From Acidobacteriota bacterium (GTDB taxonomy: Bacteria; Acidobacteriota; Terriglobia; Terriglobales; Acidobacteriaceae): a stretch of 64,000 bases of DNA. Of this stretch, positions 3,025-36,101 are shown in pieces. The position numbers were made by a program, and so were the translations under genes. Numbering within the stretch: position 1 is the first letter of the stretch; the number at the start of each line of letters is the position of its first letter. The notes beneath the pieces were generated by a model. That model had not been told where the DNA came from. It did not search any database and was given only the letters and a program-made list of their open reading frames with translations. The stretch covers positions 62,001 through 126,000 of the forward strand of contig JAJYVF010000002.1 in assembly GCA_021792135.1 (NCBI GenBank), read 5' to 3'.

Positions 3025-4068
3025 TCAGTGCCCGTAGCCCGATTCTGCGGTCACTTTGCCGCGGAACAGACGGTAGGACGTGATGAAGTAAATCAGGGCC
3101 AGAGCCAGGCCGAAGGACCACCAGACGATGCCGACGTGCAGGGAATGCGGTCCGGCCAGGGCTTTGGCAATGGTAATGTCGCGGCCCGGATCGGTGGAAG
3201 AGGGCAGCAGCGTGGGGTAAAGGCCCACGGCAGCTCCGACCAGCATGAAAACCAGATAAAGGCTGGATGAAAGGAACGCGGCCAGGGGCTTCCGCTGCCG
3301 CGTAAAGCTGAGAATACCGATCAGCATGGCAACAACGAGCGCTGGAATGAGGAACAGGATGGGGTGCGCCCTGTAATTGTCGAGCGCCGACGGCCGCACC
3401 GCTATGGTTGCCGGCAGGCTGATCAGGGTGACCAGCAGCAGGACGATCCACAGAACGGACGCGGCGCGGCGAGCGCGGTCCTCCAGTTCGCCGGGAGCCT
3501 TAAGCACCAGCCAGAGCGCGCCATGCGTGGCGAGGGCGACGAGGGCGACGACCCCGCCGATCACCGTGTACCAGTCCAGAATGCCGGGCTGTGCGCCGAC
3601 ACGCCAGTTGGTCCAGAGAGGCAGGAAGAAGTATTCGTCCGCACCCAGAGGCACGCCGCGAATCACGTTGGCCAGGGCAGCACCGAAGAAGATGGCCAGC
3701 AGAGCGCTGGAAAGAAAGAACAGCCCGTCGAAGAAGGTGCGCCAGACCTCATGATCGGTGTGCATGCGCAGCTCAATGCTGGCGCCGCGGCAGATCAGCA
3801 GCCAGAGCACGATCATCAGCGGCAGGTAAAACCCGCTGAAGGAGGACGCGTAGAGCAGGGGAAAGGCGAAATAAAGCGTGCCGCCGCCCGCCAGGAGCCA
3901 GACCTCATTTCCGTCCCAGACCGGTCCGATCGAACGAATCAGGGTGCGGCGATCGTCCTCCGCGCGCGCAAGAAAGGCGGAGAGGATGCCGACACCGAGG
4001 TCGAAGCCGTCGAGCACGACATAGGCGGCGATCATGACTGCCACAATCCAGAACCAGACGAATCCCAT
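3025..4068 (-). CDS. cydB: Cytochrome bd ubiquinol oxidase subunit II
   Basis: 347 residues with about eight or nine hydrophobic segments. The N-terminal helix carries the family pattern [10 protein letters not shown] at residues 21-30, and [11 protein letters not shown] follows at about 48-58. CydB pairs with CydA in the inner membrane to oxidise quinol and reduce oxygen with high affinity. It begins 16 bp after cydA and has a good ribosome site (GGAGAA) before the ATG. The length is normal for the family. It shares a transcription unit with cydA and probably with the acyl-CoA synthetase gene downstream. Confidence 0.95.
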
Positions 4069-4084: not shown

Positions 4085-5449
<1,365 letters not shown>

Positions 5450-5487
5450 ACCAACCTCACACTAACCGGGGCCCGCGAGAAGGCTCA

Positions 5488-5501
5488 GTGACCCTTGTCA
5501 C
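5488..5501. promoter_or_regulatory. Crp/Fnr-type palindrome upstream of cydA
   Basis: GTGACCCTTGTCAC: two perfect inverted 5-bp half-sites around a 4-bp spacer. It lies between the NapC-like gene and cydA. Its centre is about 45 bp from the cydA ATG, which leaves too little room for a -41.5 activator site plus a normal leader. Repression, or an unusually short leader, is therefore more likely than class II activation here. The same motif recurs near 16.1 and 17.5 kb. Confidence 0.6.
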
Positions 5502-5593: not shown

Positions 5594-7042
5594 CTATTGG
5601 AGGTGCAGCTCGTTCTGCAGCCCCAGATCGTTGAGTACCCCCGGATGCGTCTCGTCGGTGGCCAGCAGGTTGTGGCAGAGGCTGCAGTCGTTGCTGAGCG
5701 TCTTTCCGTCCCTGGAGACGTGGTTGCCGTCGTGGCAGCGGAAGCAGCCGGGATAGGCCATGTGACCGATGTTGTTGGGATAGGTGCCCCAGGTGATTTT
5801 CATCTGCGGATAGACGTTGCGGTCGTAGATGGCGACCAGCCTCCTGGCCGCCGCGTCGATCTTCGGCCGCTGCGAGGTCCACACGTCCGGATACTTCGTG
5901 CGATAAAAGTCGTCGAGGCCCGCCACAATCTTCCGTCCTGCTTCCGCCTGCGAGGAGTACTTCGCCTGGATCAGCTGCAACCCTTCCTTGTGAACAAAGG
6001 GCAGATCGGGACTGGGGCTGCCGTCGAGCATGGCTTCGTCGATGGCTTCCTGCGGGGTCTGGAAGACGTGGGTGGCCTGGTTATGGCAGTCCATGCAGTC
6101 CATGGTGCGCGTCACTCCCCGGATCGGCCCTTTCCAGTCGGTGCTGACATATTGGGTGGTGGTGCCGTCCGGGTTGGTTGCCGTGACCGCAATGATCGTC
6201 TGCTCATCGGCGCCGGTGGCAACGTATTCGAAATGATTGAGGTGATGGCCGTGAATGCCGCTGAAGTGGGAAACCGAGTCGACACCGCCGAGGTGCAGCA
6301 CCAGCACGGTGCGGGTGACGGAGTTCTTCTCGTCGTCACCGAAGGTCGTCTTGACCAGCAGCTTTTCGCCGACGAATCGCGTTGGCGAGTGGCACTGTTC
6401 GCAGGTCTCGCGGGCAGGCCGCAGATTGTTGAGGGTTGCGCGAATCGGCGTGGGCCACGTGTGAAAGGCCACCTCGACCAGCTGCCGGGTGCCGTTGACC
6501 TTGGCCTGAATATAGGACTCCATCCCCGAGCCGACGTGGCACTGTACACAGTCGACGTGGGAATGAGGCGACTCCCGATAGGCGGTCCACTGCGGGGCCA
6601 TCACGTGGCAGGACTGGCCGCAGAAGCGGGGTGAATCCATGTAGGCGACACCCCGGTAGGAAGAAAGACCCACGATGATGAAGTTCACAAAGGTGGCCGC
6701 GAGCACAACGATAACGCCGTGACGGAAAAGCGGATCGTCGAGATGCAGCGCCGGATAGGACGCCGGGATCTGTCCCGCCTGGCGGAGAGCCTGGCGGCGC
6801 AGAAGCATGCCGATGGGAACCAGAAGAAGTCCGCCGACGAAAAGCGCGGGCAGGAAGAGGACGAAGATGATGCCGAGATAGGGATTGGCAAATCGGTGGC
6901 CAACCATCTGCATCATCCAGTAGCTGAGCAGGGTGATGGCCGAGGCTGTGGTCAGGCCCGAACCGATGAGGGTGACGGGGTTATTTCCGAAGAAGAAGAA
7001 GGGCTGAAGCCAGTTTTCCTTCAGTCTGCTCAGCAGGGACAT
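5594..7042 (-). CDS. NapC/NirT-like membrane multihaem cytochrome c (six haem motifs)
   Basis: 482 residues. Three hydrophobic segments lie within residues 20-135 and are followed by a periplasmic part. The haem motifs are one CX3CH (CGQSCH near 140) and five CXXCH (CVQCH, CEQCH, CMDCH, CFRCH, CSLCH). The first motif is followed by MAPQWTAYRESPH, as in NapC/NrfH-type quinol dehydrogenases, where a nearby residue contacts quinol. The likely role is passing electrons between the quinone pool and periplasmic multihaem partners. It is the last gene of the leftward cytochrome cluster, 9 bp after the cytochrome b gene, with an AGAGG ribosome site before the ATG. It could also be a quinone reductase in the reverse direction; substrate specificity cannot be read from the sequence. 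Confidence 0.85.
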   Translation of the reverse strand: MSLLSRLKENWLQPFFFFGNNPVTLIGSGLTTASAITLLSYWMMQMVGHRFANPYLGIIFVLFLPALFVGGLLLVPIGMLLRRQALRQAGQIPASYPALHLDDPLFRHGVIVVLAATFVNFIIVGLSSYRGVAYMDSPRFCGQSCHVMAPQWTAYRESPHSHVDCVQCHVGSGMESYIQAKVNGTRQLVEVAFHTWPTPIRATLNNLRPARETCEQCHSPTRFVGEKLLVKTTFGDDEKNSVTRTVLVLHLGGVDSVSHFSGIHGHHLNHFEYVATGADEQTIIAVTATNPDGTTTQYVSTDWKGPIRGVTRTMDCMDCHNQATHVFQTPQEAIDEAMLDGSPSPDLPFVHKEGLQLIQAKYSSQAEAGRKIVAGLDDFYRTKYPDVWTSQRPKIDAAARRLVAIYDRNVYPQMKITWGTYPNNIGHMAYPGCFRCHDGNHVSRDGKTLSNDCSLCHNLLATDETHPGVLNDLGLQNELHLQ

Positions 7043-7051
7043 GCAGGCCTC

Positions 7052-7945
7052 TTATCCGGCGACATACGCGCTCAGTGTCAGTACCAGCAGGGCCAGGCCG
7101 ATGAGAATCGCCGTGAACCCCACCACTCGACTGAAATTTATCAGCCACAGGGGAGGGGCGTCTGTGATCCTCATCGCAGACCTGCCCTCGCTGAGCATGC
7201 GGAAATACTCCTTCGGACGGCGCTGCCTGAACTCTTCCTCGCTCTCCCGACCGGTGAAAATGACCATATCCATGGGGAAGCTGTCGGGGCGCAGATGGGT
7301 GTTAACGAAATGGATGGAAAAGATGAAGAGGATGGCCAGCAGACCTTCTTCGCTGTGGATCACCAGGGCAGCATTCAGGGCCCAGCCGGGGAGGAAGCGC
7401 GCGAAGAACGGCGCGAACCACATGGCATAACCGGAGAAGCCGATGACCACCATTCCCCAGAAGACGGCCCAGTAGTCGAACTTCTCCCAATAGGCGTAGC
7501 GCTCGAATTCAGGTTTGGGCCCGAGACCGAGAAACCAGCGGAAGTGGGCGAAGAGGTCCCGGACGTCTTTCCAGTTGGCGACCATCGAGGTCGGCCCCCA
7601 GAAGATTCCCTTTTCGCCCTTAAACAAGCCTCGGGCAATGATTTCGCGGAGGTGGATCAGAAAGGCAAGGGTAAGGATCAGGGCACAGAACTTGTGGAAG
7701 AAAAGTATGGCGCCGAAGCCCCCCACGGCTTTGGCGAATCGGATCGCCCAGACCGTGCCGCTGAAGCGCAGGGGCAGGCCGGTGGCGGCCAGACCCAGAA
7801 ATGTGGCGAACAGCACACCGTGCAGATACCTTTGCGCGAGGGTAAAGCGCAGGAAGTAACGTTCCTTTGTCTCCGGCGGCGGAGCGGGGCCCATCAGGGG
7901 TTCTGTGCTTTCCTGTGCGGGAACGGCTGGGCTTGGCTCAGGCAT
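7052..7945 (-). CDS. Cytochrome b, formate-dehydrogenase-gamma-like membrane subunit
   Basis: 297 residues with about five hydrophobic segments. The membrane histidines suit two b haems (RYLHG near 43; FFHKF; AFLIHL; VIHSEEG; IHFVNTH). The open frame begins further upstream, but the ATG at 7945 has GGAGG at the right distance and starts 8 bp inside the end of the preceding 11-haem cytochrome gene, suggesting translational coupling. It closely resembles the C-terminal half of the 719-residue fusion protein at 9708-11867, for example in EKFDYWAVFWG against EKAEYWALVWG. It probably exchanges electrons between quinol and the adjacent multihaem cytochrome. Confidence 0.85.
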   Translation of the reverse strand: MPEPSPAVPAQESTEPLMGPAPPPETKERYFLRFTLAQRYLHGVLFATFLGLAATGLPLRFSGTVWAIRFAKAVGGFGAILFFHKFCALILTLAFLIHLREIIARGLFKGEKGIFWGPTSMVANWKDVRDLFAHFRWFLGLGPKPEFERYAYWEKFDYWAVFWGMVVIGFSGYAMWFAPFFARFLPGWALNAALVIHSEEGLLAILFIFSIHFVNTHLRPDSFPMDMVIFTGRESEEEFRQRRPKEYFRMLSEGRSAMRITDAPPLWLINFSRVVGFTAILIGLALLVLTLSAYVAG

Positions 7946-9128
7946 GTTTCCCTCCTGCCGATTTGCCTTTGACCTGCTGGAAACGCGAGCGCACAAGCCA
8001 CAACACGGTGTGCAGCAGAAAGAATGTCAGCACGCTGGTGAGGAGCAGGTTCATGAACAGCCGGATGTAATAGAGGGCCGGATTCAGCTTCCGGTTCCGC
8101 GCATTGGCATGCGGCTGATACTGGACGAAGCTGGCATTTGCGCCGGCGTGGCAGCGGCCGCAGGTCCTGACCAGATTTGCCTTGGCCACGGATGAGCGCG
8201 GATCGGAGGCAGGCAGCACGTCGTGCGCCTCATGACAATCCCAGCAGCGCGCCGTTTCGGTATAGCCGCCGAGCAGCCCGAGCTGGGAGTGGAAGGTGTC
8301 GCGGTACGTGGTGAACTTATCGCGATGGCACGATCCGCAGATCGGCGTCGACTGCATCCGGAAATCCGCTGAGGTGGGCTCGGCAATAGCATGCGCGGTG
8401 TGGCAGTCGGTGCACACCGGTGCATGCGGATTTCCCGCCGCGACAGCCTTTCCGTGAATGCCTTTCTGGTACTGCTCGTTGATCCCGACATGGCAGCTGC
8501 CGCACGTGCCGGGGATATTGGCCCTGTAGGTTGGGCTTTGCGGGTCTTTGTGGCTCAGGATCTTATGCGAGCCGTGACAGCTGGTGCAGTTGGCGGCCAC
8601 CAGCAGCCCTTCCTTGCCGAGGGCGAAGCCGTGGATCGAGTCCAGATAGAGCGCATAAACGTTGGGCAGACCGTATTTCTTCGCCATCGCCTCGTTGCCG
8701 TGGCACGATCCGCAGGCTTTCGGGATGTTCAGCGGATAAACGGTGGAATTGGGATCGGTCCTTGCAACGATTGTGTGCGGGTCGCCATGGCAACCAATGC
8801 AGGGATTCGAGCTGGCCTTCGCATGCACACTGCCGCCAACTCCGGCGGCCTCATCAGCGTGACAGGAACTGCACTGCACGGGCGCGGGATGATCCGGATG
8901 CGGATATCCGTGAATGGAGGTGTGACAGTCGGTGCATTTGAGGCTGCCGTGGATGCTTGAGTGAAACCGGCCGGAATTGACGGCGATGCTGCGCCCGGAA
9001 GCGTCCTGCATGCCGGCGTCTCCATGGCAGGAGAGGCAGTCGGTATCCGCATGCGCGACACGCGCTGTCCCGGCCAGCAGGAGTCCTGCGATCAGCAACG
9101 TGCAGCCAGGGAAGAAAAGGGCTCTCAT
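7938..9128 (-). CDS. Periplasmic 11-haem cytochrome c with C-terminal membrane anchor
   Basis: 396 residues. A signal peptide occupies about residues 1-27. Eleven CXXCH motifs follow (CLSCH, CTDCH, CSSCH, CIGCH, CGSCH, CTSCH, CGSCH, CTDCH, CGSCH, CWDCH, CGRCH). One transmembrane helix lies near 347-368, then a basic tail. Distal histidines in repeated SIHG elements are probable second haem ligands. The repeats match those of the 13-haem fusion upstream, so the two are paralogues. The gene overlaps the cytochrome b gene by 8 bp; together they form a split version of the fused protein. No catalytic site is recognisable, so an electron-wire role is inferred. Confidence 0.88.
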   Translation of the reverse strand: MRALFFPGCTLLIAGLLLAGTARVAHADTDCLSCHGDAGMQDASGRSIAVNSGRFHSSIHGSLKCTDCHTSIHGYPHPDHPAPVQCSSCHADEAAGVGGSVHAKASSNPCIGCHGDPHTIVARTDPNSTVYPLNIPKACGSCHGNEAMAKKYGLPNVYALYLDSIHGFALGKEGLLVAANCTSCHGSHKILSHKDPQSPTYRANIPGTCGSCHVGINEQYQKGIHGKAVAAGNPHAPVCTDCHTAHAIAEPTSADFRMQSTPICGSCHRDKFTTYRDTFHSQLGLLGGYTETARCWDCHEAHDVLPASDPRSSVAKANLVRTCGRCHAGANASFVQYQPHANARNRKLNPALYYIRLFMNLLLTSVLTFFLLHTVLWLVRSRFQQVKGKSAGGKHA

Positions 9129-9233: not shown

Positions 9234-9554
9234 CTATTTCGCGAGGGTGCGGATATAGGAAACGACATCCTTGATCTGGGCATCGCTGAGTTTGCCGCCG
9301 TACGATGGCATCCTGCCCATACCCATTTTCGTAACAGCGATCAGGTCGGCTTCGGATTTCTTTGCCACCGCCGGGTCCTTGAACGACGGGACCTTCATGG
9401 CTTTGCCGGCCGGCGTAGACGCAGTTCCGTCAGGACCGTGGCACATCTGGCATTTGGCTTTGTAAGTGTCGGCGCCGGCGCTCTGCGCGAAGGCAGGCGC
9501 CGCAATAGCTGCGGCCAGCACGATCATAGCCGCGGTTCTGATGCGATGGTTCAT
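9234..9554 (-). CDS. Small mono-haem class I cytochrome c
   Basis: 106 residues. A signal peptide ends near AFAQ (residue 24). The single haem site KCQMCHGPDG is at about 35-44. The probable axial methionine is in GMGRMPSY, and the ending KDVVSYIRTLAK is the usual class I C-terminal helix. It is a soluble periplasmic electron carrier. An AAGGAG ribosome site precedes the ATG. Its paralogue at 12039-12359 has the same length and shares DVVSYIRTL; each precedes a multihaem cytochrome b module, so the two arose with that duplication (inference). Confidence 0.9.
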   Translation of the reverse strand: MNHRIRTAAMIVLAAAIAAPAFAQSAGADTYKAKCQMCHGPDGTASTPAGKAMKVPSFKDPAVAKKSEADLIAVTKMGMGRMPSYGGKLSDAQIKDVVSYIRTLAK

Positions 9555-9707: not shown

Positions 9708-11867
9708 TCAATCGCCTTCCTCGGGAGTGCTGTCCCTGGACCCCGGGTCGGGAGCAGGCTCATCCGCCTCCTCCGCGAGATCCTCCTTCGTTAGCTCCCG
9801 CACTTCGTGTTTGGGCGCGTGCCCGGTCAGGAAGGTCCACTTCACGGGGTAGATATCGGGATCGAAAATGACCGCGTAGAAATGCCAGATCAGGATGGCC
9901 AGCGTGGCCAGAACGGCCTCATAGAAATGAATGGCGGTACTGATGGCGAGCACGGACGAGGGGTGCGGCAGGTGGGCCAGGATCCAGTCGTTGAGCCAGA
10001 GCAGGATACCGGTGACGGCCATGACCGCGGTGCCCCAGACCAGCGCCCAGTACTCGGCTTTCTCGACGTAGTTGAAGCGGCGATATCGCGGCAGCTGATC
10101 GCGGCGGCCGAGATTGAATTCGACGGTCTTCGCGGCCTCCCGGGCATCGCGCAGATCGGGAACCATCTCCTTCAGCCAGAGGCGGCCGCTCTTCTTCGCG
10201 GACAAATAGACGATGTGGTAGACCGACGCGCCGATGAGCACGACGCCGGCAATGCGGTGCAGCCAGCCGCGGATGGGGAAGAAGTGCTCCCAGCGGACGA
10301 TGGGAGCAGCCCAGAAGGCATGGGGATATTTGAGCGCGAAGCCGCTGATCACCAGGACGATGAAGCTGACCACCAGCAGGCCGTGCTGCACGCGTTCATT
10401 CAGGGTCAGGCGAAGCTGTCCGGGAGCCGTGCGGTAATGCGCGAGCAGCGCCTTTGTCTTGCGGCGCCAGTCGATCAGGTTGTGGAACACCATCAGCCCC
10501 AGCGTGACCGGGATGATGGTGAAGTAGAAGATCCGGACCAGGATGAGCACACGGCCGCCAGGCGCACGCGAAGAAAAAGAATGGACCTGCCCAATCGCGA
10601 ATCGCCGCCCCGCGTCCGCATGGCACTGGCCGCAGGTCCTGCTCAGATTGGCGCGGTTGACCGTGGAGCGCGGGTCCGTGGAGGCGAAGATGTTGTGTAC
10701 GCCGTGGCAGCTTGCGCAGTTGGCGACCGTCTGCCGACCCTCGTGGGCCGCGAGGCCGTGGTAGCTGTCCTCGTAGGTGGGCACACGATCCTGCGGCATG
10801 TTGAAGCCGGCCATCAGCTGGGCGTCAGCGTGACAGCGGGAACAGGCCTCCTGCGAGACGTTGGCCATATAGACGGGCGATCCGGGGTCACCGGGCGCGA
10901 GGATCCTGTGCTCACTGTGGCAGTCGGTGCAGGTGGCCGCCTGCAGCACGCCTCTGGCGACGGCCTGACCATGGATGCTCTGCGCGTACGTTTTGTAAAC
11001 GCCGCTGTGACAGGTTCCGCAGGTGGAGGCGACGTTTTGCTTCCAGATCTTCGAACGCGGGTCGGAAACAGGCAGAATGTCGTGGACGCCATGGCAGTCG
11101 CCGCAGGAAGCCGCATTCAGGTTCCCGTTTCTGATGGCCCGTCCATGGACGCTCTGACGCCAGGCTTCGACCGGGCGGGCCTCGGGAAACATATACTTCG
11201 CGGCCAGCTGCGGGCTGGAGTGACACGCTCCGCAGGTGTCCGCCAGATGCTGCTTGCTGACCGGCGACTGCGGATTGCCGGCAGCCAGCACGGCGTGGGT
11301 CGCTCCGTGACAGCTCTGACAGCCTGGCACATCGCCGTTACCGTGGTCGTGGGCGCGGCCGTGAATGCTGGCCCGGTACTGCTTTACCTCCTCGGCATGG
11401 CAGGTGACGCAGAATTGCGGCCCGGCTACGCTTTTGCTGACATTGCCGGTCCCGTGACAGCCGATGCAGGATTCGGAACCGGAAGGGTTTCCCAGAGCAG
11501 CGTGAGCGCCGGCGGCAAGGGCCTTCGTGGCATCGGCGTGACAGGTGACACAGGAGGCCGAAGCGGTCTTCGCGTTGTGTGTCTGCGCTGCCGCGCCGGC
11601 GTGGCAGGCGAGACAACCGAAGCCGGCATGGGGACCCCTCATATGGGATGAGGCTCTGATGGTGATGTCCGCGCCTGCGGAGTTCTTCAGGCCGGTGGAG
11701 GATCTGTGGCAGGCGAGACAGTCGGAAGCCTGCTGTGCGCCAGCCTGCGGAACAAGCAGCATGGCGTTCAGAAAGATGAGGAGGAACAGAGTGCCGATGC
11801 GGTATCTTTCCGATGCGTTCGCTGCAGTCCGGCGTTGCGCAGGCAAAGCTTGCGCGCGGGTGCCCAT
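9708..11867 (-). CDS. 13-haem cytochrome c fused to a cytochrome b membrane domain
   Basis: 719 residues. A signal or membrane segment (about 24-45) is followed by thirteen CXXCH motifs between about 50 and 425. After that comes a cytochrome b domain of about five helices with histidines (ERVQHG, RGWLHR, SVYHIV, IHFYEA, IWHFYA). Its tail is acidic. The c part matches the 11-haem protein and the b part matches the cytochrome b of the neighbouring genes, so this is a fused version of the same module. It would link membrane quinol chemistry to a chain of haems in one polypeptide. AAGGTA lies 7 bp before the ATG. The direction of electron flow cannot be deduced. Confidence 0.87.
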   Translation of the reverse strand: MGTRAQALPAQRRTAANASERYRIGTLFLLIFLNAMLLVPQAGAQQASDCLACHRSSTGLKNSAGADITIRASSHMRGPHAGFGCLACHAGAAAQTHNAKTASASCVTCHADATKALAAGAHAALGNPSGSESCIGCHGTGNVSKSVAGPQFCVTCHAEEVKQYRASIHGRAHDHGNGDVPGCQSCHGATHAVLAAGNPQSPVSKQHLADTCGACHSSPQLAAKYMFPEARPVEAWRQSVHGRAIRNGNLNAASCGDCHGVHDILPVSDPRSKIWKQNVASTCGTCHSGVYKTYAQSIHGQAVARGVLQAATCTDCHSEHRILAPGDPGSPVYMANVSQEACSRCHADAQLMAGFNMPQDRVPTYEDSYHGLAAHEGRQTVANCASCHGVHNIFASTDPRSTVNRANLSRTCGQCHADAGRRFAIGQVHSFSSRAPGGRVLILVRIFYFTIIPVTLGLMVFHNLIDWRRKTKALLAHYRTAPGQLRLTLNERVQHGLLVVSFIVLVISGFALKYPHAFWAAPIVRWEHFFPIRGWLHRIAGVVLIGASVYHIVYLSAKKSGRLWLKEMVPDLRDAREAAKTVEFNLGRRDQLPRYRRFNYVEKAEYWALVWGTAVMAVTGILLWLNDWILAHLPHPSSVLAISTAIHFYEAVLATLAILIWHFYAVIFDPDIYPVKWTFLTGHAPKHEVRELTKEDLAEEADEPAPDPGSRDSTPEEGD

Positions 11868-12038: not shown

Positions 12039-12359
12039 TTACCTCTGCAGGGTACGGATGTAGCTGACGACGTCGTGAATCTGCGCGTCCGTCAGCTTGC
12101 CGGCGTAGCCCTGCATCCTGCCCACGCCGCTTTTGATCTCCTTAGACAGCTGCTCGTCGCTCTCCTTAATATCTTCGGCCGATTTCAGCGAACGCAGCTT
12201 CATGCTCCTGCCGACCGGTGTGTTCCCCGTGCCATCGGCGCCGTGGCACATGACACATTTCGCTTTATAGTTGACGGCGCCCGGCTCCTGGGCCAGGGCG
12301 GGAACGGCGAGGGCGGCCCCAAGGAGAATCAGTACGGCAAGACGGACACTTTGTTTCAT
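12039..12359 (-). CDS. Small mono-haem class I cytochrome c (paralogue)
   Basis: 106 residues. A signal peptide ends near LAQ (residue 24). The haem site is KCVMCHGADG, the likely axial methionine is in GVGRMQGY, and the C-terminal helix reads HDVVSYIRTLQR. It is a periplasmic electron carrier and a paralogue of the gene at 9234-9554. It lies between the beta-barrel gene and the 13-haem fusion on the same strand, so it probably shuttles electrons between the membrane cytochromes and the outer-membrane conduit (inference). Confidence 0.9.
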   Translation of the reverse strand: MKQSVRLAVLILLGAALAVPALAQEPGAVNYKAKCVMCHGADGTGNTPVGRSMKLRSLKSAEDIKESDEQLSKEIKSGVGRMQGYAGKLTDAQIHDVVSYIRTLQR

Positions 12360-12418: not shown

Positions 12419-14980
12419 TCAGAACTCATAGTGGAATCCGAGCGTGACGTTGTTGGCATGAAAATTCCGCGGCGCAGTTTCCCCCGCGGGCGATATGGTC
12501 AGACCGGTTTGCAGGCCAGCCAGTACCGGAGAGTTACAGGGGACAACGGGGACCGGAGAACCGGGAGTGGGATTGGACGTACTGCAATAAGGCGCACCGG
12601 AAGGGCCGCCCTCGCCGTAGCCATAGAAGTTATATTCCGCCTTCCAGATCCAGCTCGGATGAACGGTCCACGCCAGATTGACATACGGCGACTGATAGGT
12701 GGAGACCAGCGAGCCCGCCACGTCGCGCGCATCATTGTAGAAGCGGCTGCCGCTCACGGAGCTGATCAGATACCCGATGCTCGACTGGAGCCGGCTGACT
12801 GGCGTCACGGTGATTGCGGCCGACCCGTACTGCGTCGGAGCATCCATGAAGTCTCTCGCCGGCCCGAACTCGTAGTACTTTGCCCCTCTTACGGTAGCGC
12901 CGGGACAGGCGGTGCCGCTTGGCGTTGCGGCTCCGGGCAGAGTCGGGGTGGACGCGGCGTTGTAGCAGATGTTCGTGGCAGTGTAGATGTCGGAGTAGGC
13001 GTAATTCATGCTGAGAGCGTAATGCGCATTGGGCGCCAGCGTCGCACCCACACTCCCAATCCGGCTGTGCGCGACGTGATCGAGCGGCCCGTCGATGGAA
13101 ACCGCGCCGGAGTTATTCGTGTTGTTGTGCAGTTCCATATCGTTGAAGGCCCCGGTGATCGTCGCCCAGGTTCTTGGCCGATACATGGTATGCACCCTGT
13201 AGCGCTGCAACTGCCGCGGAGCCACCGGGGTGAATGCGTTATCGGCGTAGAGGATCTCGGCGGTGCCGTTCACATCCCAGCGCGCCGTGGGCCGCAGAGC
13301 GAGGTTCAGGATTCCCCCATTCTGGTGAATGGTGACGGTTCCTCCGTCGGTCTCCCCGTAAGTCAGGGGAGCGCTGTGCGGCAGGCCCTCCGCAATGATG
13401 TGCGTGCGGTGACGATACGTGAGCGAGAGGGTGGCAAGGGACCAGCCTTCCCACGTTCCGGTCACATCGTTGTTCACATACTTCTGACCGAAGAAGTACG
13501 GCAGAGGATCGCCGACCGAGCCGCTGCCCTCGAAAGTGGAAGAACCCAGGGCTCCGATGCTCGCCGTCAGGTTACTCGCATTGATCGTCTCGTTTCCCGC
13601 AGTCGCCGGCGTGGACACCGTCGTCACGCTCGTCATGGTGGCGACTCCCGGTTGCTGTACATTCCAGAAGCTCACCTGATCGGAAAGGCTGAACTTCTGG
13701 CTGGCCTGCCAGACGATGCCGTAGTCGACATCAATGACCTTGCGTTGGGCGGAGGCGAAGGCAGTATAAGCAAGAGAGCGAGTCGTTTTGGTCAGACCCT
13801 GGAAATTCTCGTAGTAGTTCGGCAGGCTCATGTTCGCATTGGTGTAGCGGACGTCTCCGTTCATCGAAACATTGGTGATGCTGGAGCTCTGGAAACGGAA
13901 GATCTCTGTCGGAAAAAGCATCCGCGTTGGCTGCGAGCGCTGGTAGCTGGTCACGACCGCGCACGCCGGATTGACGATGGGCAGGCCGCCCGGAGTCGGC
14001 GGCGCGGAGAGGACGGGAGCGGAACCGGCGCTGTTTGCGTTGCAGGAGCTGTTGGTGTAGGGCGTCTCGTTGTAGTAATTGGCAAGGAGGGCGGCCTTCG
14101 TTCCGTCCGCTTCCTGGACGTTGAAGGCCCCGGGAGGCATGGTGAAGTAAGAATTCTCCTTGTAGTGGTCCACCTCTTCTTCAAACGTCAGCCTGGTTTG
14201 CGGCAGGACCTTCCAGTCGATCCCTCCCAGAAAGTCGTCGGCGCTTTTGCGCTGAAATTCCTCAACCAGAACGCTGTAGGATCCGGCGAACTGATAACCG
14301 CTCGGCGTCAGGCTTGGTCCCTGGAAGACATTCTGCGAGTAGCCGGCTCGAAAAGTGACCTTTGACAGCGGGAAGATGGTGACGCTGGTGTCCGTCATGC
14401 GACGCACCGTATTGAACAGGAACGGCGACTGATTCACCTGCGACCACGGCAGCGAGCCCGCGGGCGCGATGGCCGATCCGATGGGCGTCGACAGCCCGGA
14501 AATGATATTCGGGTTACCCAGCAGATCGTAGTCAAAGTACTGACGGTCCCGCCGGAAAAGACCTGAGAATTCGTAGAGATTTCCTTTGTAAAAGTCCAGA
14601 GAGGAGAAGTTATTCGGATCGCCGCCGAACCCGTTGCTGACGGCCGTCAGGGAATCAACCAGGGTGCTCTTTGTGCCCGGCAGGGCTCGCAGCTGGAAGG
14701 TCTCGCCAAGGACGCGCGGCCCGGACTGCAGGTTGATCATCGTATCGTACATGGCCCCGCTGCCCGTCATGTTGGCCATGCGGCCACCGAGATCGATGGC
14801 CTCGTGGATCGAATATCCGCTGGGAGCAACCAGCTGCGGCTCTGGCGCCGGAGCCTGGGCGGCCGCGATCGCAGCCGTCATCAGGAAAGCGGCAACCCCC
14901 ATACTCCCGCCGATGCGCTGCGCCATGGTGGGGGCGGGGAGTTGACCGGAGAGCCGATTAAGCCAGCTTGTCTTCTTCAT
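12419..14980 (-). CDS. Large outer-membrane beta-barrel, candidate MtrB/PioB-like porin
   Basis: 853 residues. A signal peptide runs to about residue 42 (AAIAAAQA). A long part rich in alternating polar and aromatic residues follows, and the last residues NVTLGFHYEF end in phenylalanine as barrel proteins do. The ATG at 14980 is chosen because it starts the MKK signal sequence; the open frame extends 29 codons further. It lies directly after a DmsE/MtrA-type decahaem gene, the usual arrangement for porin-cytochrome conduits that carry electrons through the outer membrane. No CXXC motif like that of Shewanella MtrB is seen near the N-terminus, and sequence similarity to MtrB is not obvious by eye. 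The conduit role therefore rests on length, barrel features and position. Confidence 0.65.
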   Translation of the reverse strand: MKKTSWLNRLSGQLPAPTMAQRIGGSMGVAAFLMTAAIAAAQAPAPEPQLVAPSGYSIHEAIDLGGRMANMTGSGAMYDTMINLQSGPRVLGETFQLRALPGTKSTLVDSLTAVSNGFGGDPNNFSSLDFYKGNLYEFSGLFRRDRQYFDYDLLGNPNIISGLSTPIGSAIAPAGSLPWSQVNQSPFLFNTVRRMTDTSVTIFPLSKVTFRAGYSQNVFQGPSLTPSGYQFAGSYSVLVEEFQRKSADDFLGGIDWKVLPQTRLTFEEEVDHYKENSYFTMPPGAFNVQEADGTKAALLANYYNETPYTNSSCNANSAGSAPVLSAPPTPGGLPIVNPACAVVTSYQRSQPTRMLFPTEIFRFQSSSITNVSMNGDVRYTNANMSLPNYYENFQGLTKTTRSLAYTAFASAQRKVIDVDYGIVWQASQKFSLSDQVSFWNVQQPGVATMTSVTTVSTPATAGNETINASNLTASIGALGSSTFEGSGSVGDPLPYFFGQKYVNNDVTGTWEGWSLATLSLTYRHRTHIIAEGLPHSAPLTYGETDGGTVTIHQNGGILNLALRPTARWDVNGTAEILYADNAFTPVAPRQLQRYRVHTMYRPRTWATITGAFNDMELHNNTNNSGAVSIDGPLDHVAHSRIGSVGATLAPNAHYALSMNYAYSDIYTATNICYNAASTPTLPGAATPSGTACPGATVRGAKYYEFGPARDFMDAPTQYGSAAITVTPVSRLQSSIGYLISSVSGSRFYNDARDVAGSLVSTYQSPYVNLAWTVHPSWIWKAEYNFYGYGEGGPSGAPYCSTSNPTPGSPVPVVPCNSPVLAGLQTGLTISPAGETAPRNFHANNVTLGFHYEF

Positions 14981-15100
14981 ATAGAGCCTCACTTGAGTGA
15001 ACGTCACCCAGATCCACAACCTGGGCCTGTCTGCGAATTTGCTCGGATGCGGGCCGCGTCGTCGCATGGGACAGAACCACGCCGCCCGCCTCCATCACTC

Positions 15101-16018
15101 CTAACGGAGGAACGCCTGGTTGATGTTCGATCCATGGATGTAGGTATGGCAGCTCGTGCAGGGCTGCAGCACCGACGATCCCTGCCCCATCCCGATGACC
15201 GTGTGCGAGGAGACCGGGCTGTGACACTGGTTGCACAGCGTATTGATCGACGGCATATTCAGCATCCGGGCGTTCTGAGAACCATGCGGACTGTGGCAGC
15301 CGAGGCATCCCTCTGCCTTCACCGGCGCGTGCTCGTATACGTAGGGCCCGCGGGTCTCCATATGGCACTTCGTGCAGATCATGTTCTGATCGGCCGTGGC
15401 CCTCAGGTTGTTGGGCAGGAAACTGCCATGCACGTCGTGGCAGTCGCTGCACCGGACCACGCCTTCATTCACCGGGTGGTGAAAAGGCATATCGAACATG
15501 GGCTTCTCGTCGTTGTGGCACTTGTAACAGAGCTGGGGCTGAGCCGCGGTCAGCAGGAAGCGGTCCGTCTTCGCCTCGTGAACGCTGTGGCAGCTCACGC
15601 AGCTGAGGCCCGCTCTGGCATGCGGCGAACGCTCGAAGTTCGGGTGGGTGCCGGCATGGCAGCCCAGGCAGGTTTGGCTGACCTGCGCCGGCGTCAGCTT
15701 GTCGAAACGGCGAATCTTTGTAACGTCTCCGCCCCCTTCGACGTGAGCCTTGCCGGGGCCGTGGCAGCTTTCGCAGGTCACTCCCTTGCCGCCGTGTTCC
15801 AGGGCAAGGCGGGAATGAGGATTCGTGCCGAATTTATTCGCGACTTCCTCGTGGCAGGTGGCGCAGGTCTCCTGTCCGACATAGTCGGCCGGGTTGGCCG
15901 TCGCCCCCTTCTGGAAGGTTGCCGCCTGCTGGCCCTCTCCGGCAGCCAGCGCCAGCCTGGTTCCCGCGAACCCGCTCAGCAGCAGAAGACAAGCCATGCT
16001 GGTAATGAATCGACGCAT
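15101..16018 (-). CDS. Decahaem cytochrome c, DmsE/MtrA/PioA-like
   Basis: 305 residues. A signal peptide ends near LALAAG. Ten CXXCH motifs follow (CATCH, CESCH, CLGCH, CVSCH, CYKCH, CSDCH, CTKCH, CLGCH, CNQCH, CTSCH), spaced as in DmsE/MtrA, with typical RSPHAR and HHPVNEG segments between them. These proteins sit in an outer-membrane porin and pass electrons between periplasm and cell exterior. Two in-frame ATGs occur six bases apart; the second (16018) is preferred because GAGGTG is too close to the first. It is the first gene of the leftward cluster. Two Crp/Fnr-type palindromes and a matching -10 element lie upstream. Confidence 0.9.
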   Translation of the reverse strand: MRRFITSMACLLLLSGFAGTRLALAAGEGQQAATFQKGATANPADYVGQETCATCHEEVANKFGTNPHSRLALEHGGKGVTCESCHGPGKAHVEGGGDVTKIRRFDKLTPAQVSQTCLGCHAGTHPNFERSPHARAGLSCVSCHSVHEAKTDRFLLTAAQPQLCYKCHNDEKPMFDMPFHHPVNEGVVRCSDCHDVHGSFLPNNLRATADQNMICTKCHMETRGPYVYEHAPVKAEGCLGCHSPHGSQNARMLNMPSINTLCNQCHSPVSSHTVIGMGQGSSVLQPCTSCHTYIHGSNINQAFLR

Positions 16019-16103
16019 GTGCATTCACCTCGCACAGCAGCAGAGGCAGCCATTCGCGCTGGATACCCCGGCCTCGCTGAAATTGGTGCTTAGGTACTGC
16101 TGG

Positions 16104-16146
16104 AGAATAGCGATGCGATGCAGCACCTCTCAGTGATGCCAATCAC
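16104..16146 (-). promoter_or_regulatory. Predicted Crp/Fnr-activated promoter of the multihaem operon
   Basis: GTGATGCCAATCAC at 16133-16146 is a perfect inverted repeat. On the minus strand TATTCT at 16109-16104 can serve as the -10 hexamer, giving a start near 16098. The palindrome centre is then about 41.5 bp upstream, the standard class II position for Crp/Fnr activators. The decahaem ATG is about 80 bases further on. Confidence 0.6.
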
Positions 16147-16167
16147 AGGAAGACATTACTTTTGGCG

Positions 16168-16181
16168 GTGATCCATATCAC
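16168..16181. promoter_or_regulatory. Second Crp/Fnr-type palindrome of the multihaem promoter
   Basis: GTGATCCATATCAC, an inverted repeat whose centre is 35 bp upstream of the proximal site and about -76 from the predicted start. Two copies at such spacing suggest tandem binding of the same regulator. Confidence 0.55.
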
Positions 16182-16670
16182 ACTTATGGCGGTTACCAAT
16201 CCGGAGTTAGAGACTTACTTTGTCCGCAGAGATCGCTTCTCCCCTGCCTTAGGCGTGCCGCGCCGGTACCGAAATAACCTCCGGCTCCGCGTCAGGGGGG
16301 CGGGCGGCCATGCACCAACCAGTGCTGTGGTTCCTGCGGGCAAACTACTATCTGGACTAACTACGGAATAGAGTCAGGCAGCTGGAGCGGAGTAGGTCGC
16401 CGCACTCTGTCGCGGGACCGGAAATCTCAGTGCACCCGCGGAAGAGGCCAGAAGAGGACTCCAATTCCTTCTGCGCACCGGCCGCCAGTCCAGATCAGGG
16501 CATAATGGCGGCAACGATGCCCCGGTAGCTCAGAGGTACGGGCAGTTCCCCTGCATAGACCGGAGCCAGATGCTCTCCGCCGCCGGCAATGCGTATTTCA
16601 GGCAGGGGGATCGCACCTGCAGTGGGTAATTACGAGGCTCGCAGCTCACATACCGCGGAAGCCGGAGGCG
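16182..16670. other. Stretch without a supported gene
   Basis: Nearly 500 bp between the multihaem promoter and the hydrogenase relic. No open frame here resembles a known protein. From about 16519, GCCCCGGTAGCTCAGAGGT resembles the 5' part of a tRNA (acceptor strand and D-arm), but no matching 3' acceptor strand or normal T-arm follows. It may be the continuing erosion of the hydrogenase locus plus promoter DNA. Confidence 0.4.
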
Positions 16671-17421
16671 TCAACATGGACCCCTCCGGCTCCGGCGCGG
16701 CCGCCAGATCGGAGCCCTACCCGCAGCATGCACGGCTTCCGGCTCATTGCCATCGATTGCGGTAGATATCCCACCTACCCGATACGTCCGCAGGTGTGGA
16801 TTTTTACCGCCCAGGACCGCGCGGATGCGAATAAAATCCCGCTGCATATCAAGCGCCTCGATGTAAGTGCGCGACAGCAAGCAGGTTCGCTTCCGGCGGC
16901 AGTTGGTAAGCAGGATGTCCCCAGTCACCGCTGCTAAAGAGACTCAACTGCCGCGAGGCGACGAGCGCCCGGACGCGGTCCTGGACTCCCTTAAAATGCG
17001 TTGTGCTCGATTGCGGACACTCCGGGATCGGCTGCGCGAGCTGCGAAATCTTCGCCGGATCGGCCTTCAGGGCGGGGGTCACATCGGCCCAGTCGAGCGC
17101 GTGTAAATAGTTGAAGTGTACGACGTGGTCCTGAACTTCGTGGATGAACTGGCCACAGTTGAACGACGGCGTTTCGGGAACAATATCTTCGATGGCCGGA
17201 TGCGGGGAGCGGAGCATCGATTCGGTATTCCCCAGGGAGCCCCGGAATGCCAGCCATTCGAGCACCGGCTTGCGGCTCTGCCCCAGCGCGTCGGCCCTCG
17301 TCTGCGCACAGGAGGTCGGCAGCGCCAGCGTGGTGGCCATGACGCCGCAGAACTCCATTGCGCGCTGGCGCGAAATCCCGTGCCGTTTCCCTGTCTCCAG
17401 GACCGACTCTTCCGTGGCCAT
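16671..17421 (-). pseudogene. [NiFe]-hydrogenase relic: small-subunit start joined to a large-subunit segment
   Basis: From the ATG at 17421 (AGGGGG before it), about 90 residues resemble the start of a Tat-type hydrogenase small subunit: GISRQRAMEFC, then TESMLRSPHPAIEDIV. The cluster cysteines expected before TES are absent (FRGSLGNTES). At about 17150 the frame passes straight into large-subunit sequence: HALDW, ALKADPAK, then GDWGHPAY and PPEANLLAVAH, ending in a stop at 16849. The large-subunit match continues in another frame (YIEALDMQRDFIRI, VLGGKNPHLRTY, IDGNEP) until about 16690. A deletion thus removed the rest of the small subunit and the start of the large, and a frameshift followed. 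It cannot be functional as a hydrogenase. A Crp/Fnr-type promoter is still present upstream. Confidence 0.85.
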
Positions 17422-17465: not shown

Positions 17466-17508
17466 AACTTAGCGTTCCGGAGAAGCACCTGTATGTGACT
17501 GCCATCAC
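17466..17508 (-). promoter_or_regulatory. Crp/Fnr-type promoter upstream of the hydrogenase relic
   Basis: GTGACTGCCATCAC at 17495-17508, with outer inverted repeat GTGA/TCAC. A weak -10 (TAAGTT, 17471-17466 on the minus strand) would give a start near 17460, again about 42 bp from the site centre. The relic ATG is at 17421. Confidence 0.5.
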
Positions 17509-17571: not shown

Positions 17572-17607
17572 GTGACTGGAGTCACACCGGGTTGTGCCCG
17601 CAGTCAC
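17572..17607 (+). promoter_or_regulatory. Tandem Crp/Fnr-type sites upstream of universal stress protein
   Basis: GTGACTGGAGTCAC at 17572-17585 is a perfect inverted repeat. GTGCCCGCAGTCAC at 17594-17607 has one mismatch in the left half. Their centres are 22 bp apart, two helical turns. The stress-protein ATG is about 50 bp downstream. No good -10 hexamer was identified. Confidence 0.5.
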
Positions 17608-17656: not shown

Positions 17657-18574
17657 ATGAAAACCCTCGAGGAACGCGCTGTGCGCAATCGAGCCTTTGT
17701 CGTGCCGGACAAAATTCTCGTCGCCACCGATCTGGCCGATACCGATTACCTGATTCCCCACGCCATAGCCCAGGCCCGCGCCTGCGGAGCCGCACTCGTT
17801 CTGGTGCATGTCATTCCTCCCGCCGAGACCATCCCTCTGGATGCCAGCGCCATTCCCTATGTGGACGAGGCGGGCATGCAGCGGGATGCCGAGCAGATGC
17901 TGGAGGGAGTTGCGGCCCGCGTGCGCGACGGCGGCACCCCCTGCGAGGTCATCGTCGCCTCCGGCTCCCCCCGCGACCGCCTGGCCGCGCTCGTCCGCGA
18001 GACCCATGCGGGGCGCATCGTCGCCGGCACGCACGGAAGACGTCACCTGAAGCGGATCCTGCTCGGCTCCGTGGCCCACGAAATCCTGCGGACCGCGGAG
18101 GTTCCGGTCTGCACGATCGGACCGCATGCGCATGAAGCTTCGTCCTTCGGAGCTCCGCGGCGGATTCTGCACCCTGTTTCTCTCTGCGCCGGGTACGAGG
18201 ACAGCGCCGCCATCGCCATGGAGCTGGCACAGTTCTACCGCGCCGATATCACGCTGCTGCACGTCCTGTCTCCCGATGCTCAGCACCAGCACGACGCGGG
18301 GCGCATCGTCGAATGGACCCAGTCCGAACTGAAACGGATTGTGCCCGAAGAGGCGCCGCTGTGGACGCATGCCACCGTGCAGGTGGAAACGGGCAATGTT
18401 GTGGAAGAAGTGCTGAATGCGGCGGCGGAGATGTCGGCGGACCTGATCGTGCTGGGCGTGAACGCCGATGTTTCGTTCTGGCCGATTCGCGGCGACGATA
18501 CGGTCTACAGCATCATTGCCCGGGCCAAATCGCCGGTGCTGAGCATCCGGCGCACCACGGAGTCGTGCGCGTAG
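17657..18574 (+). CDS. Universal stress protein, tandem UspA domains
   Basis: 305 residues with two UspA domains: about 20-170 (start ILVATDLADTDY, nucleotide-loop-like GTHGRRHLKRILLGSVAHEIL) and about 175-303. The second copy ends VLGVNADVSFWPIRGD and lacks the usual G-x2-G-x9-G(S/T) loop. The ATG at 17657 has AGGAGG in front; a longer frame from 17594 would run through the operator and is rejected. Such proteins are cytoplasmic and often induced under oxygen limitation or energy stress, which agrees with the Crp/Fnr-type sites upstream. It is divergent from the hydrogenase relic. Confidence 0.88.
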   Translation: MKTLEERAVRNRAFVVPDKILVATDLADTDYLIPHAIAQARACGAALVLVHVIPPAETIPLDASAIPYVDEAGMQRDAEQMLEGVAARVRDGGTPCEVIVASGSPRDRLAALVRETHAGRIVAGTHGRRHLKRILLGSVAHEILRTAEVPVCTIGPHAHEASSFGAPRRILHPVSLCAGYEDSAAIAMELAQFYRADITLLHVLSPDAQHQHDAGRIVEWTQSELKRIVPEEAPLWTHATVQVETGNVVEEVLNAAAEMSADLIVLGVNADVSFWPIRGDDTVYSIIARAKSPVLSIRRTTESCA

Positions 18575-36087: not shown

Positions 36088-36101
36088 GTGACGAATCTCA
36101 C
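36088..36101. promoter_or_regulatory. Candidate Crp/Fnr-type site upstream of ccmF
   Basis: GTGACGAATCTCAC: outer four bases inverted (GTGA/TCAC), inner pair not matching. The centre is 110 bp upstream of the ccmF ATG. Sites of this form also precede the multihaem operon and cydA, so cytochrome maturation may be co-regulated. No strong -10 was found. Confidence 0.4.

Follow-up and report, generated by a model that had tools for sequence, protein, structure and literature searches.

A decahaem cytochrome operon of an acidobacterium is preceded by two exact Crp/Fnr-type palindromes, and we think it probable (roughly three chances in four) that they belong to a class II Crp/Fnr promoter bound by one of two FNR-like proteins of the same genome, here called F1 and F2, which would activate the operon at low oxygen. 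The window analysed, a stretch of 64,000 nucleotides, comes from a genome of 5.1 Mb in 77 contigs (G000); the closest relatives with a name are metagenome bins of Acidobacteriaceae and Acidobacterium.

The decahaem operon and its promoter

The operon lies on the minus strand and starts with a gene (15101-16024, ATG at 16024) for a decahaem cytochrome of the DmsE family, which has paired CXXCH motifs and matches TIGR03508 at 260.4 bits against a cut-off of 192.2. It is followed by an 882-aa protein (12419-15067) without a match in Pfam or NCBIfam, which from its position may be an outer-membrane barrel partner, MtrB-like, and then by a small cytochrome c (12039-12359; PF13442), a multihaem cytochrome c fused to a cytochrome b561 domain (9708-11867; PF14522, PF01292), another small cytochrome c (9234-9554; PF13442), a multihaem c-type cytochrome (7938-9128; PF14522, PF14537), a cytochrome b561-like membrane protein (7052-7996; PF01292, under its cut-off) and a NapC/NirT/NrfH-like multihaem quinol dehydrogenase (5594-7042; PF03264 over its cut-off, TIGR03153 under its own). 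Last come the genes for the two cytochrome bd oxidase subunits, cydA for subunit I (4085-5449; NF011609 and NF011677, both under their equivalog cut-offs) and cydB for subunit II (3025-4068; TIGR00203, 227.1 bits against a cut-off of 117.3). Ahead of cydA there is a further Crp/Fnr-type site (5488-5501), with TAGTGT 23 bp off at 5459-5464 on the minus strand.

The proximal palindrome of the decahaem promoter (16133-16146) reads GTGATGCCAATCAC, or TGTGATTGGCATCAC on the minus strand, and the distal one (16168-16181) reads GTGATCCATATCAC. Neither has a mismatch, and their centres are 35 bp apart, as the first-pass annotation had described. That annotation had also placed TATTCT so that the proximal centre would fall at about -41.5, and this reading holds: this predicted -10 hexamer (16104-16109, minus strand) lies 23 bp beyond the proximal palindrome, with a predicted start near 16097-16098, and the proximal centre comes to -42.5 when TATTCT is taken as -12 to -7 or to -41.5 when the start is taken as 16098. 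The distal centre is then at about -76.5/-77.5. A simple sigma-70 scan of 15600-16800 returned no promoter, as is to be expected when a class II promoter lacks a -35 element. On the coding strand the two palindromes read TGTGATTGGCATCACT and TGTGATATGGATCACC, resembling a TGTGA half-site of the CRP type more than the FNR box TTGATNNNNATCAA with its half-site TTGAT, as given in an excerpt of PMC4505428.

The exact palindrome pattern occurs 15 times in the 5.1 Mb genome (each palindrome counted once), against 0 occurrences of the reversed pattern, and 0 of 4000 first-order Markov sequences, modelled on the 824-bp upstream region, held even one copy. In the window, 5 matches were found at no more than one mismatch against a shuffled mean of 1.38, a count of 5 being reached by one shuffle in 100. 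Six core sites lie in the window, one ahead of cydA, two ahead of the decahaem gene and three elsewhere. Two of the latter (17495-17508 and 17572-17585) lie between a hydrogenase remnant and a divergent universal stress protein gene (17657-18574, plus strand; PF00582; start from codon score), which is a likely target. The third (36088-36101) is 109 bp ahead of a minus-strand cytochrome c assembly gene (PF01578). The remnant (16849-17421, minus strand) is a short frame, the start of which resembles a small-subunit Tat signal and an end fragment of which matches the large-subunit family PF00374; it still has its Crp/Fnr-type sites upstream.

When the 420 bp ahead of the decahaem gene were searched, 46 of 49 loci had the core GTGA-N6-TCAC, and in a second set of upstream regions it is present in 21 of 30. 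It is missing from the other 3 and 9, though these counts are not independent, as the relatives share ancestry. The first set consists of the window and 48 relatives with 53-79% best-segment identity, and excludes L027 (4 bp upstream) as well as L071 and L072 (not acidobacterial). The second set, drawn from family genomes down to 45% identity, also includes the window; the flank of L091 is short and its region is perhaps misplaced, and the F-less genome G029 was left out. Without the five loci common to the first set, the core is present in 16 of 25. As controls, the 420-nt stretches after the match start contain the core in 0 of 49 loci, and eleven permuted palindromes of the same letters were each found in 0 to 2 of the 49. 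The distance to the -10 box is conserved as well. For the 67 sites of the 49 loci, a TAnnnT box lies 22 bp beyond the site in 17 cases and 23 bp beyond it in 26, and no other offset between 10 and 44 has more than 2 boxes. The culturable Silvibacterium bohemicum shows a comparable promoter at L038 and L050, with a single core site followed 23 bp on by TATGCT; an F-type gene, a homologue of F1 and F2, is found near L050.

That the palindromes arose by chance or are a neutral repeat might be argued from the shortness of the sites and from the common ancestry that makes the relatives' counts non-independent. This we regard as extremely improbable, given that it is contradicted by the distance to the -10 box, conserved both among relatives and in the own genome, and that the genome pattern counts, the 46/49 and 21/30 conservation and the Markov control all speak against it. 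The first-pass assignment to a Crp/Fnr class II promoter is thus strongly supported by a site and a -10 distance that are kept together in relatives and across the genome, and on these grounds the decahaem-promoter site can be described as a predicted, conserved class II element.

In seven near relatives the pair is spaced 37 bp instead of 35. In L022 and L025 the distal palindrome is either degenerate or missing, so the proximal site is probably the indispensable member of the pair. Within a class II promoter activated by an FNR-like protein, the distal site could also have an inhibitory, tuning role like the one described for E. coli yfiD, so that expression peaks at low, non-zero oxygen. 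The tandem layout would suit such a role, as would the inclusion of an oxidase, useful in micro-oxia, in the operon, and yfiD offers the precedent of an upstream FNR site that lowers expression (PMC11264516, in part). However, strong repression is described in the same part of that source for upstream sites at -85 to -95, against about -77 to -80 here, and L022 and L025, as noted, have no intact distal site, so that we find the inhibitory role rather doubtful.

Several other features of these upstream regions were noted. The motif AAGTAA is conserved between the palindromes (16146-16168 in the window; L022, L026, L028, L029, L042) and is a possible alpha-CTD contact. In a second clade of decahaem promoters (L044, L048, L049, L052-L056 and others) another element, about AAGTGATGCTCCGCACAA, follows the Crp/Fnr site by ~54-55 bp, near or just past the predicted start. 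Reading the palindromes as RNA hairpins was set aside, their stems being 5 bp long, their loops variable and their position upstream of the predicted start. A terminator scan of 15600-16800 gave one terminator-like site, where shuffled sequences averaged 0.8, and Rfam, at its gathering thresholds, matched nothing in the window.

Sites across the genome and the distribution of regulator genes

Both strands of the own genome hold 91 matches to TGTGA-N6-TCAC against 7 for the reversed pattern. When sites were read with their flanks, those too near a locus end being dropped, 54 of 66 were intergenic and 12 coding, a split that relies on a simple codon-score gene caller. The 54 intergenic sites are accompanied by 17 TAnnnT boxes at 22 or 23 bp (both orientations) and by at most 2 at any other offset; the 12 coding sites have no box at either of these two distances. 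Pfam scans, which took in 40 of 60 site-gene rows, identified as site neighbours pyruvate:ferredoxin oxidoreductase (PFOR), complex I subunits (nuo), CcmE, two cytochrome c assembly proteins, FeoA, rubrerythrin, a multihaem cytochrome, universal stress proteins, and a sirohaem synthase with sulfite/nitrite reductase. ClpP, citrate synthase, KdpA and Sel1 proteins were found too; therefore a respiratory target is not present at every site, and ClpP, citrate synthase and Sel1, not being typically anaerobic, count against low-oxygen activation by F1 or F2.

Across the 100 family genomes the number of F-type genes, homologues of F1 and F2, follows the number of TGTGA-N6-TCACA sites, with a Spearman coefficient of 0.72 uncorrected for shared ancestry. 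When the comparison is restricted to genomes of at least 90% completeness, the median number of sites is 2 where F is absent (n=7) and 19 where there are three F copies (n=11); even so, 4 of the 7 F-less genomes hold 2-6 sites. Outside the family, F was detected in 7 of 134 genomes (E up to 2e-40), which have a median of 7 sites versus 1 in the rest (P 0.011, ancestry uncorrected). Single genomes point both ways: in favour of a link between regulator and site, G070 (99% complete) has the decahaem gene and is missing both the F regulator and the site, and against it, in G020 (76% complete) the site is present and no F was found. In the wider phylum, 11 genomes have at least 7 sites but no close F homologue, therefore other proteins can read the motif.

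An F-type gene is often found near the decahaem gene in relatives, namely in the fetched flank (up to 5 kb) at 28 of 51 loci, and within 10 kb in 20 of 60 rows, the latter count using 60 decahaem and 72 regulator rows, a part of all rows. F1 and F2 do not adjoin the decahaem operon and are encoded elsewhere in the genome. With approximate gene starts, the core lies within 350 bp upstream of 13 of 44 F genes, same-genus counterparts of F2 included; F1 and F2 themselves do not have it in the 350 bp upstream of their approximate starts.

Candidate regulators

Five proteins of the own genome carry a Crp-type HTH over the cut-off. F1 (L001; G000:C10:21217-21945) and F2 (L002; G000:C8:51671-52366) each combine a cyclic-nucleotide-like domain with the Crp HTH, and share an N-terminal C-x2-C-x8-C and the recognition helix RETVTR. 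F1 stands between two universal-stress-like genes (G000:C10:20143-23210), and the upstream one, assigned to PF00582, has a TGTGACAGATATCACA site 95 bp ahead. Their homologues were studied as a set of 74, selected by length from 97 that had all first been found by similarity to F1 or F2; the CRP-type helix Arg-Glu...Arg, a pattern not used in the selection, is present in 74 of 74. In the same set Cys19 is found in 69, Cys22 in 70, Cys31 in 69 and Cys70 in 71 proteins, and Cys118, perhaps the counterpart of E. coli 122, in 36. F1 and F2 carry all five cysteines. It is likely, judging from this conservation, that the F-type cysteines hold an iron-sulfur oxygen sensor.

The cluster of E. coli FNR is held by C20-x2-C23-x5-C29 and C122. 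The F family does not have this spacing with a fourth cysteine at 122, having C-x2-C-x8-C and Cys70 instead, and because of the difference we call it FNR-like. It also has Arg where E. coli FNR has Val before the recognition Glu (in part from the excerpt of PMC4505428), so that the Val-Glu helix is replaced by Arg-Glu throughout, and the acidobacterial sites have TGTGA where the FNR site has TTGAT (same excerpt). Otherwise the F family is similar to the FNR proteins of E. coli and A. fischeri in its Crp/Fnr domains with HTH, its N-terminal cysteine cluster, its anaerobic-type targets and its predicted class II activation.

TGTGA-N6-TCACA is the classical CRP consensus, and a cAMP-CRP-type carbon regulator could be what binds the sites. 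The helix RETV is shared with the CRP proteins of E. coli and M. tuberculosis, as is the site, and the best PDB sequence match of F1 is M. tuberculosis CRP. A structure model of L034, a relative of F1 (mean pLDDT 81.6; residues 1-20 under 50), aligns with GlxR at Z 20.2 (rmsd 13.7, 216 aligned) and with FNR 9qll at Z 18.8 (rmsd 14.3, 221 aligned); cAMP-type regulators thus score slightly above FNR, by a margin that does not tell FNR and CRP folds apart. However, cAMP phosphate is bound through an Arg-Ser/Thr cassette, and in the alignment F1 has YEVTAET opposite PRTSSATT of M. tuberculosis CRP, therefore the cassette is missing from F1. A cysteine set is conserved in the F family, which further sets it apart from these CRP proteins, and many site neighbours are respiratory. 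Taken together we regard cAMP-CRP-type control as quite unlikely, and favour an FNR-like regulator because of the conserved cysteines and the lack of a cAMP-binding cassette in F1.

Control of the operon might also be assigned to L003, L004 and L005, Crp/Fnr proteins with HTH from the same genome which have the helix RELVSR and no N-terminal cysteine set, and which are probably NO-responsive. L003 and L004 are divergent to genes which we take, from their sequences, to be RIC/YtfE-like and of the NO-repair type, with a TTAA-centred box, GACTTAAGTCAC, in between; its GACTTAAGTC recurs ahead of a presumably NorB-like gene, and no box of the GACTTAAGTCAC type was found in the stretch around L005. 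This box has a TCAC half-site in common with the decahaem sites, and cytochrome bd is often NO-responsive, both of which would suit NO-type control. Yet L003 and L004 have a box of their own at the RIC/YtfE-like and NorB-like genes, and not one of the 67 decahaem sites or the 74 own-genome sites has its TTAA centre. With the TCAC half-site common to both, it is the absence of this centre that leads us to set the NO-type proteins lower, as unlikely regulators of the operon. RELVSR Crp/Fnr proteins, RIC/YtfE-like genes and the GACTTAAGTC box occur together at L171 (G000:C17:38000-50000) and L172, and these genes and boxes likely form a NO regulon. For the decahaem operon, FNR-like proteins of the F1/F2 type are the most likely regulators on the sequence evidence, which makes the first-pass suggestion of a possible response to oxygen or redox state more specific.

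A proposed low-oxygen switch and its relatives

We propose that a dimer of F1 or F2 would occupy the proximal palindrome, directly upstream of RNA polymerase. By analogy with CRP/FNR class II promoters, it would contact the polymerase and compensate for the missing -35 element, and transcription of the decahaem operon would begin near 16098. This activation may be increased or tuned by the distal site. The signal would most likely be a fall in oxygen to which an iron-sulfur cluster, held by the conserved cysteines, responds. The product would be a quinol-linked multihaem cytochrome chain that contains a DmsE-type decahaem and probably leads electrons outward, the operon ending in cytochrome bd genes with a putative site of their own. 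According to PMC8407424, cydA of Acidobacterium capsulatum rises as oxygen falls, in favour of this proposal, and, against it, that of Edaphobacter TAA 166 is undetected at any oxygen level; the word FNR does not occur in the main text of that paper. Acidobacteria with decahaem cytochromes have been proposed as iron reducers (PMC3669403, in part).

Modules of this kind are known from Shewanella. Its Dms/Mtr porin-cytochrome modules likewise join a DmsE-family decahaem cytochrome to a quinol-linked cytochrome, whereas the acidobacterial operon has more cytochromes, followed by cydAB, and a supposed barrel unmatched in Pfam or NCBIfam. As to the regulator, Bacillus subtilis Fnr is an FNR-type oxygen sensor that acts on a TGTGA-N6-TCACA site, the same type as here, but its cluster is C-terminal and the F-family cysteines are N-terminal.

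In many relatives a full-length FNR-like gene is accompanied by a short one, often near the decahaem gene. These short FNR-like proteins of ~165-200 aa lack a DNA-binding domain (L189:2282-2776, L194:2374-2889, L102:503-994 and others); the C-x2-C-x8-C is kept in 14 of the 18 frames read, and Pfam gives solely the cyclic-nucleotide-like domain in 3 of 3 scanned. Among 26 listed frames of up to 206 aa, a limit by which G042 and others with longer frames were left out, 22 share their strand with a full-length F gene at most 360 bp away, and in 13 cases a decahaem homologue follows within ~1 kb, one of these homologues (G004) being a weak partial match. In the own genome, the FNR-like frames among the matches listed are F1 and F2, beyond which there are two weaker matches. 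Several FNR paralogues in one genome, with possible heterodimers, have been described for Fnr1 and Fnr3 of Herbaspirillum (PMC5934665, in part); those are promoter-binding FNR orthologues, in contrast to the acidobacterial short partner without a DNA-binding domain. We tentatively raise the idea, which we would not call probable, of an FNR class of the Acidobacteriaceae's own, with an N-terminal cluster on C-x2-C-x8-C and the beta-roll Cys70 and with CRP-type DNA specificity, in which many relatives would keep the full-length FNR, the short FNR-like protein and the decahaem gene as one cassette, and the partner would damp the switch through oxygen-dependent heterodimers. Among open PMC titles and abstract starts, we found no paper on an FNR regulon of Acidobacteria or on an FNR-like family with CRP-type DNA reading.

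In soil, Acidobacteria are abundant; little is known, as far as we are aware, about how they change from oxygen to other electron acceptors and back. The sequences compared here suggest that the F family is a variant of FNR with CRP-type DNA reading and with a partner without a DNA-binding domain. The motif, the candidate regulator and the list of targets are directly testable, and would tie multihaem cytochromes and cytochrome bd to one switch.
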